A stretch of DNA of 64,000 nucleotides. Origin: Chrysaora quinquecirrha (taxonomy: Eukaryota; Cnidaria; Scyphozoa; Semaeostomeae; Pelagiidae). A model generated the notes under the pieces. That model saw only the letters and a program-made list of their open reading frames with translations, was not told the origin of the DNA and searched no databases. The position numbers and the translations under genes were made by a program. Positions 10,101 through 20,645 of the stretch are shown here, one piece after another. Within the stretch, counting starts at the first letter, position 1, and every line of letters starts with the position of its first letter. The DNA is taken from positions 7,224,393 through 7,288,392 of the forward strand of contig JACTAT010000014.1 of the NCBI GenBank assembly GCA_014526335.1. The letters are read 5' to 3'.

Positions 10101-13100
10101 GACAGCTTCTCCACAGGTACCATAGGGACCTTTCTCTTATTTTTGCCAAGTACAATAAAATATCAACAAACAGTGAAGATGATGGAGCAAAAAAGAGAAA
10201 TATTTGAGGCTTACTTCATTAAATAGTAATTCTCTCCGCTGTTGTTTTTGAAGATTCATTTTCTTGACGGCAAGAGCTTTTCCCGTCCTCTTATCCCTGG
10301 CAATGCACACCGTCCCTGAGGAGGGTCGTGATTGTCCGTTGGATATTCGACGAATGTTTTGCAGACATTCGCGAATGTTTTTCAGACATTCGACCGAAAA
10401 AGTGTATATCGTGTCTGGGCTGTTCCGGGAGGTTTTTGAGCTGGAAATAATAAAAAACAATCTGTTGTATCATATTTTGGGCATTTAGAAGCAAAAGAAT
10501 AATATTTGAAAGCTTGCGCTTCAGATATCAACTGTCTGCCTAGGCCAGTCACAGCTACGAAAACTGAAGTACGTTCCTGAACTGACAGCGCCACTGCCAG
10601 CTTGCTAAGGTAGCAAATAGACAATTAAATTTATATTTGATTCCTACCTTAACTTTTTTCTTGAAGTTTCGATCGTTATTTAGAAAATATAAGCATATTT
10701 TTATACTGTACTTTTCTTGACTGTGATTTCAAGTTTGACACGCGCGGCGTCCACGAACAGGAAACCAAGCTGTCCGATTGTTCTCCATTGTTTATGAACA
10801 ATTACACGCGAATTTGAAGAAATAATCGCGCGGCATATTTTATACTGACTCTTGAAGAAAAAAAACTTGCTTCAGTCAATGTAAAAAATCGACGAATAAT
10901 CGATAAAAAATCAGGTTCTTCAAAAATACATTCCGTTTTTGCATGAAATGAAGCAGTAGGCACTACAGTCTCATGGTATTAGGGTCTCCAGTCGACTTGA
11001 GCTCTATCTCGAATGTTTCAGGGGGTCAACTTATGACTCCCAGTCAATAAAAAAATCGACGAATAATCGATAAAAATCAGGTTCTTCAAAATGCATTCCA
11101 TTTTGCATGAAATGAAGCAGTAGGCACTAGAGTCTCATGGTATTAGGGTCTCCAGTCGACTTGAGCTCTATCTCGAATGTTTCAGGGGTCAACTTATGAC
11201 TCCCAGTCAATAAAAAATCGACGAATAATCGATAAAAAATCGAGTTCTTCAAAAATGCATTCCGTTTTGGCATAAACTGAAACAGTAGGCACTAGAGTCT
11301 CATGGTATTAGGGTCTCACGTCGACTCAAGCTCTATGTCCAATGTTTCAGGGGGTCAACATATGACTCCCAGTCAATAAAAAAAATCGACGAATAATCGA
11401 TAAAAAATCAGGTTCTTCAAAAATGCATTCCGTTTTGGCATGAACTGAAACAGTAGGCACTAGAGTCTCATGGTATTAGGGTCTCACGTCGACTCAAGCT
11501 CTATGTCCAATGTTTCAGGGGGTCAACATATGACTCCCAGTCAATAAAAAAAATCGACGAATAATCGATAAAAAATCAGGTTCTTCAAAAATGCATTCCG
11601 TTTTTGCATGAAATGAAACAGTAGGCACTAGAGTCTCATGGTATTAGGGTCTCAAGTGGACCTGAGCTCTATCTCGAATGTTTCAGGGGGTCAACTTATG
11701 ACTCCCAGTCAATAAAAAAAATCGACGAATAATCGATAAAAAATCAGGTTCTTCAAAATTGCATTCCGTTTTGGCATGAAATGAAGTAGTAGGCACTACA
11801 GTCTCATGGTATTAGGGTCTCCAGTCGACTTGAGCTCTATCTCGAATGTTTCAGGGGGTCAACTTATGACTCCCAGTCAATAAAAAAAATCGACGAATAA
11901 TCGATAAAAAATCAGGTTCTTCAAAAATGCATTCCGTTTTTGCATGAAATGAAGCAGTAGGCACTACAGTCTCATGGTATTAGGGTCTCCAGTCGACTTG
12001 AGCTCTATCTCGAATGTTTCAGGGGGTCAACTTATGACTCCCAGTCAATAAAAAAAATCGACGAATAATCGATAAAAAATCAGGTTCTTCAAAATGCATT
12101 CCGTTTTTGCATGAAATGAAGCAGTAGGCACTACAGTCTCATGGTATTAGGGTCTCCAGTCGACTTGAGCTCTATCTTGAATGTTTCAGGGGGTCAACTT
12201 ATGACTCCCAGTCAATAAAAAAAATCGACGAATAATCGATAAAAAATCAGGTTCTTCAAAAATGCATTCCATTTTTGCATGAAATGAAGCAGTAGGCACT
12301 ACAGTCTCATGGTATTAGGGTCTCCAGTCGACTTGAGCTCTATCTCGAATGTTTCAGGGGGTCAACTTATGACTCCCAGTCAATAAAAAAAATCGACGAA
12401 TAATCGATAAAAAATCGAGTTCTTCAAAACTGCATTCCGTTTTGGCATGAACTGAAACAGTAGGCACTAGAGTCTCATGGTATTAGGGTCTCCAGTCGAC
12501 TTGAGCTCTATCTCGAATGTTTCAGGGGGTCAACTTATGACTCCCAGTCAATAAAAAAAATCGACGAATAATCGATAAAAAATCAGGTTCTTCAAAAATG
12601 CATTCCGTTTTTGCATGAAATGAAGCAGTAGGCACTACAGTCTCATGGTATTAGGGTCTCCAGTCGACTTGAGCTCTATCTTGAATGTTTCAGGGGGTCA
12701 ACTTATGACTCCCAGTCAATAAAAAAAATCGACGAATAATCGATAAAAAATCAGGTTCTTCAAAAATGCATTCCATTTTTGCATGAAATGAAGCAGTAGG
12801 CACTACAGTCTCATGGTATTAGGGTCTCCAGTCGACTTGAGCTCTATCTCGAATGTTTCAGGGGGTCAACTTATGACTCCCAGTCAATGTAAAAAATCGA
12901 ATTTTCGAATTTTGAATACCTCCGTATTTAAAGTGTACATATACGTATCTTTGAATTCACTTCTAATACTTTGCTTTTGTGTCTTTTTGCGTGCGCTTTT
13001 GCGTTCTCGTCGCTGTCACTACGTCATTTCTATCTTGACGACGTAGCATTCTAGTGCAGTGGCGTAACCAGGGTTTTGGCATTGGAGGGCAAAAGAGTAA

Positions 13101-20645: not shown

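Follow-up and report, generated by a model that had tools for sequence, protein, structure and literature searches.

The interrupted PAK gene

The window, meaning the whole 64-kb stretch of DNA that was analysed, carries on its minus strand a group-II PAK gene (PAK4/5/6-type) whose first coding exon is interrupted by a foldback element. The features are collected in Table 1. Assignment to group II was based on the order of domains, an N-terminal CRIB followed by a PAK4-type kinase domain: Pfam recovered the CRIB/PBD of the first exon (PBD, E 9.8e-10), and the best solved-structure matches of this exon were to PAK4. The split point lies within the ATP loop, between GEGSSG and TVC, and the codons for SSG fall in the right copy of a 9-bp target-site duplication (TSD).

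A complete homologue, P0011, matched five further coding exons across the kinase domain. Together with the remainder of the split exon, these form a single open frame that begins with TVCIARDK and runs through KQSSC to a stop codon. GT was found at 5/5 donors and AG at 5/5 acceptors of the PAK introns, and the six open coding exons bear out the original prediction that the remaining kinase motifs and splice sites are intact. The interrupted frame encodes 273 aa and ends in GEGSSGGS, with a stop codon after two element-encoded residues, exactly where translation had been expected to terminate. Judged from this frame, the interrupted allele is very probably kinase-null, with a predicted product consisting of the CRIB and linker without the kinase domain.

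Table 1. Coordinates of the PAK coding exons, the foldback element and its parts, numbered from the first base of the window.
Feature	Position	Strand	Basis or remarks
PAK coding exon, ATG at 20645 to insertion	19842-20645	-	CRIB/PBD, RPKPIIDPS motif, kinase domain start
Remainder of interrupted exon, 33 residues, ending at GTAAGC donor	10215-10313	-	homologue alignment, splice check
PAK kinase exon (VVIMKN...)	8756-8889	-	homologue alignment, splice check
PAK kinase exon with HRDIK	7837-7963	-	homologue alignment, splice check
PAK kinase exon with DFGF and GTPYWMAPE	7114-7239	-	homologue alignment, splice check
PAK kinase exon (VDIWSFG)	6050-6181	-	homologue alignment, splice check
Last PAK kinase exon, to stop codon	4121-4282	-	homologue alignment, splice check
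Foldback element, 9510 bp	10323-19832	.	ends GGGTCGTGATTGTCC...GGACAATCACGACCC
Left 9-bp TSD copy CCCTGAGGA	10314-10322	.	sequence readout
Right 9-bp TSD copy CCCTGAGGA	19833-19841	.	sequence readout
Left arm outer (flanking) domain, 550 bp	10323-10872	+	arm alignment
Right arm outer (flanking) domain, 551 bp	19282-19832	-	arm alignment
Left arm tandem array, 168-bp unit, 12.1 copies	10873-12900	+	tandem-repeat and unit comparison
Right arm tandem array, 168-bp unit, 13.8 copies	16976-19281	-	tandem-repeat and unit comparison
Inner inverted repeat, left copy, 230 bp	14613-14842	+	228/230 identical to right copy (99%)
Inner inverted repeat, right copy	16748-16977	-	inverted-repeat search and alignment
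Nested element, 1435 bp	13057-14491	.	ends CAGTGGCGTAACCA / CAGTAGCGTAGCCA; presumably hAT-like
110-aa open frame	15284-15616	+	presumed likeness to end of non-LTR reverse transcriptase; no Pfam match

Boundaries of the insertion

The boundaries of the element are defined to the base. At either end it abuts a copy of CCCTGAGGA, a duplication that is not extendable beyond 9 bp, as the adjoining bases differ on both sides, and the two ends are exact inverted copies of one another over their first 135 bases. Searching the window with the element's terminal 16-mer, allowing up to 3 mismatches, gave two matches, both of which are the element ends; in shuffled sequence a mean of 0.10 matches was expected, and two or more occurred in 1/100 shuffles. 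Removal in silico of the element and one TSD copy left the PAK reading frame continuous across the junction. The original prediction had described a foldback transposon of about 9.5 kb with exact inverted repeats at its ends, whose flanks read through the glycine-rich loop once the element and one 9-bp copy are discounted. The TSD, the termini and the array-bearing inverted arms described below all fit this description, and the computed empty site is in frame.

An uninterrupted version of the exon

An uninterrupted PAK copy, for which a search had been proposed, was found at the protein level. The protein search identified 31 relatives among 451 candidates, the first of which, P0001, is a sequence of 329 aa from one NCBI contig of 1,924 bp and runs through the insertion point. 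Since this contig is too short to contain the 9,510-bp element, P0001 comes from an uninterrupted copy. It is equal in length to the ORF computed for the empty site and differs from it by two substitutions (H127Y and V218A); its read-through tail into the following intron is identical to that of the window's computed ORF. An empty site, with no element and one TSD copy, is thus represented at the protein level only, via P0001. Six further relatives, of the other 30, were aligned, and all are uninterrupted through the loop, with identities to the window of 80, 70, 69, 67, 65 and 52%.

P0001 may represent this locus in a state without the element, a duplicate of extremely recent origin or else a very close relative; with 2/329 differences, it could come from a sister species or from a very recent paralogue. 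Since public data include an intact version, polymorphism of the allele, either within an individual or from one to another, becomes the leading candidate among the forms suggested earlier. The proposal of a null or heterozygous allele is compatible with both the early stop and the public intact allele, and that of a recent insertion with the near-identical arms, the uninterrupted allele and the kinase exons that are still open.

Arms of the element

Each arm has three parts: an outer domain, an array of 168-bp tandem units and an inner inverted repeat. Measured to the end of the array, the arms are about 2.6 kb (left) and 2.9 kb (right) long. The outer domains of the two arms differ by one 1-nt indel and no mismatch, and the outer 738 nt of the arms align with 0 mismatches and 3 gap events totalling 4 bases. 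Where the left and right arrays align without gaps they are 96.8% identical; 20 gap events cover 408 bases. The inner repeat adjoins the array on the right; on the left, about 270 bp and the nested element lie between them. A length of 168 bp is close to the nucleosome repeat length.

The array units, 12 from the left arm (L) and 14 from the right (R), were compared one by one. Units L7 and R4 show 0 differences, as do L1, R1 and R2, and a divergent subtype consisting of L3, L4, R6 and R9 has members in both arms. Since these unit subtypes are common to both arms, sequence has probably been exchanged between the opposite arms, and the near identity of the arms and their common subtypes provide an example in favour of homogenisation between the arms of foldback elements. 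When the outer domain was compared with L4, a unit of the divergent subtype and the sole unit tried, no match rose above the shuffle range: the best local scores, 21 for the same strand and 20 for the opposite one, compare with a background from 200 shuffles, same strand only, whose 95th percentile was 22 and whose highest score was 25.

The middle of the element

Between the arms lies a nested element, which we take to be hAT-like, flanked by its own 8-bp TSD, TTCTAGTG, at 13049-13056 and 14492-14499; since it has this separate duplication, it landed after the foldback middle existed. Within it, a palindromic repeat at 13251-13594 has copies of 76-77% identity at 46320-46589 and 29573-29672.

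The element holds five stop-to-stop frames of at least 90 aa, four of which were scanned with Pfam. No family was matched at E up to 0.01 by the frames at 13959-14258, 14512-14895, 15284-15616 and 16716-17024. The frame at 15284-15616, in which we presume a resemblance to the end of a non-LTR reverse transcriptase, was scanned again at E up to 1, likewise with 0 families. In protein searches, no homologue was found for the 127-aa frame at 14512-14895 (5 candidates with words in common), nor for the fifth frame, in the right arm at 19530-19832, which was given to the protein search alone (1 candidate). On the Pfam result for these 4/5 frames, the idea that the element carries a captured host gene or a transposase between its arms was rejected. 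Since no transposase was recognised among the four frames given to Pfam, this copy, if mobile, must probably be moved in trans, and we regard the element as probably non-autonomous.

A search of the 64-kb window for further copies of the element gave none; the only matches elsewhere belong to the nested element. The terminal 20-mer and a 31-mer of the 168-bp unit each occurred 0 times in viral and 0 times in bacterial and archaeal genome collections; as these collections cover viruses and prokaryotes and may omit near records, such counts say little. What argues for mobility is the anatomy together with the empty allele rather than any further copies.

Splicing across the insertion

The original prediction had also raised the possibility of a very young intron-like element. 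In the ten registers in which the element and one TSD copy would be removed exactly, a GT or GC donor was present in 0/10, so a clean intron was rejected, as was exact or codon-neutral removal by the spliceosome, and the exact form of the earlier suggestion is left unsupported. Other splice sites were sought near the ends, with donors taken up to 90 nt before and up to 40 nt into the element, and acceptors up to 150 nt before and up to 60 nt after its other end. The resulting 13 GT donors and 10 AG acceptors gave 15 GT-AG pairs that keep the frame and are free of stops, all of which alter the protein within the ATP loop or ahead of it. Each adds at least 34 residues directly before TVC, and in those with a donor before the loop part of the loop is also deleted. 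That the simplest GT...AG pair near the junctions leads to a frameshift, as stated previously, agrees with this analysis.

One acceptor is of particular relevance. A pyrimidine-rich site, TTGTTTTTTATTATTTCCAG, lies in the element end, with the exon resuming at 10440; the element frame from 10440 into the kinase exon is open, and the acceptor keeps the frame with donors at 19830, 19827, 19905 or 19914. The junction donors GTCGTG and GTGATT, judged by eye, fit the consensus poorly. The splice sites as a whole argue against a clean intron, but altered products may still arise.

Relation to known transposons

By anatomy the element belongs to the Foldback-type DNA transposons: it has long terminal inverted repeats containing tandem subrepeats, and a TSD of about 9 bp, CCCTGAGGA, is present at both ends. 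Foldback elements of Drosophila (FB/NOF) have long inverted arms with internal tandem repeats and a 9-bp TSD, cause mutagenic insertions and are often non-autonomous. The element described here is like them in arm plan and 9-bp TSD, a likeness of general description rather than sequence; FB units are much shorter than 168 bp.

In Tetris, from Drosophila virilis, the terminal inverted repeats (TIRs) are described as having flanking, tandem-array and inner domains, with an 8-9-bp TSD (PMC4079207). Our element shares the outer flanking domain, the tandem array (of ~220-bp units in Tetris) and the inner domain, as well as a variable non-coding middle for which the Tetris description reports no conserved ORF and no known transposase; this likeness is one of anatomical plan (PMC4079207). 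The TSD is 8-9 bp in three complete Tetris copies and 9 bp here, and the homogenisation of units proposed for Tetris has its parallel in the arms described above (PMC4079207). The two differ in the length of the unit, 168 bp as against ~220 bp, and of the arms, about 2.6 and 2.9 kb as against up to 1,735 bp (PMC4079207). A 37-bp stretch is common to flanking domain and unit in Tetris (PMC4079207); the match to L4 here is within the shuffle range.

Rehavkus-1_TC of Tribolium is described as 9.5 kb long, with a 164-bp tandem unit in its inverted termini, mostly as five and eight monomers (PMC10218199), and the Rehavkus TSD is given as 9 bp (PMC6446971). The element is similar in size (9.5 kb), unit (168 bp, 164 bp in Rehavkus-1_TC) and TSD (PMC10218199, PMC6446971). 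According to the account in PMC6446971, however, the single ORF of a Rehavkus element encodes a PHD-finger transposase, its TIRs measure 26-400 bp, one minisatellite precedes the 3′ TIR, and the known hosts are arthropods and annelids. Here the inverted arms are about 2.6 and 2.9 kb long, arrays occupy both of them and no transposase was recognised in the four Pfam-scanned frames, so the element was not filed as Rehavkus. Tm1, a Mutator/Foldback family of root-knot nematodes, resembles it in having composite inverted repeats with tandem units, commonly a 9-bp TSD, non-autonomous members, an empty site, in Tm1 shown by PCR, and, in one copy, a nested second element (PMC3169594). Its units are 13-15 bp and the copies described 1.1 and 2.6 kb, unlike those here (PMC3169594). 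Literature joining a foldback transposon with a cnidarian, or MULE-NOF with a coral, was sought and none was found; no claim to a first report is made.

Interpretation

Taken together, these findings make it very likely that the window contains a recent, polymorphic insertion of a non-autonomous Foldback-type cut-and-paste DNA transposon in the ATP-loop exon of PAK, with a predicted kinase-null effect. The element would act in the manner of Foldback, Tetris and Rehavkus elements. Its long arms would have been bound by a transposase that is encoded at another genomic site and acts in trans, and the element would have been cut from its donor site and joined to a 9-bp staggered cut at CCCTGAGGA, the repair of which would have produced the two TSD copies. 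The allele would be polymorphic, to judge from the uninterrupted version in public data (protein level). Translation of the interrupted allele stops two residues into the element, which would give a CRIB and linker that lack the kinase domain, and such a null allele may be tolerated with the sampled animal heterozygous or the allele rare.

The existence of an uninterrupted exon could also reflect an assembly artefact, in which the assembler placed an element from elsewhere within the exon, and long inverted and tandem repeats are classic triggers of misassembly. A misjoin, however, would have to coincide to the base with the two ends of the transposon, in the context of a single codon. Transposition produces just this arrangement, in which each exact inverted terminus abuts one copy of an exact 9-bp duplication; the chance of a 9-bp match is about 4e-6, and since the exact TSD and the 135-bp exact termini argue against misassembly, we consider it very unlikely. 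Little credence is given to the window being a fixed PAK pseudogene copy with P0001 as a functional paralogue elsewhere in the same genome. The two sequences do differ at 2/329 residues and P0001 has no assigned genomic place, but the tail read through into the intron beyond the exon is identical and the window's six coding exons are, insertion apart, open with consensus splice sites, so any duplicate would be extremely recent.

It is also very unlikely that the element is a spliced intron, or is becoming one in the manner of introners, with the gene still yielding a working kinase. The pyrimidine-rich acceptor at 10440, the open frame behind it and the frame-keeping donors are in keeping with this, and introners with TSDs and TIRs, some of them adding codons, are described (PMC9860276). 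Against it are the missing donors in the exact registers, the poorly fitting junction donors and the at least 34 residues added by 15/15 frame-keeping pairs, some of which delete part of the loop; the median lengths given for introner families are 30-654 nt (PMC9860276), compared with 9,510 bp here. A tolerated, functional allele is likewise distinctly improbable. It could arise as an in-frame insert, in which case splicing from 19830 to 10440 would place about 43 element-encoded residues in the ATP loop, or as a truncated inhibitor plus hairpin dsRNA, in which case the truncation with the CRIB and RPKPIIDPS would be a natural dominant inhibitor of CDC42-PAK signalling and the 9.5-kb hairpin in the pre-mRNA would give double-stranded RNA.

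A recent Foldback-type insertion, the reading we prefer, is a known kind of event and a good textbook case, and leaves the understanding of how such elements work unchanged. It records neatly, in a natural setting, how a large foldback transposon splits a conserved kinase exon, and since the empty allele is in public data, the age, mobility and fitness cost of the insertion are directly testable in the host population.

Other features of the window

No RNA families or tRNAs were found in the window. Beside the PAK gene, a POMGNT1-like gene, which indicates an animal host, is duplicated in tandem (20935-29497 and 29687-38016); the repeat motifs may point to a cnidarian. The duplicates share 11 matching blocks of 75-94% identity, 10/11 in the same orientation and order, and for two frames of the first duplicate the PDB gave matches to POMGNT1. 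A tandem array at 62068-62362 has overlapping periods of 23, 40, 76 and 116 bp, with 93% matches at 116 bp.
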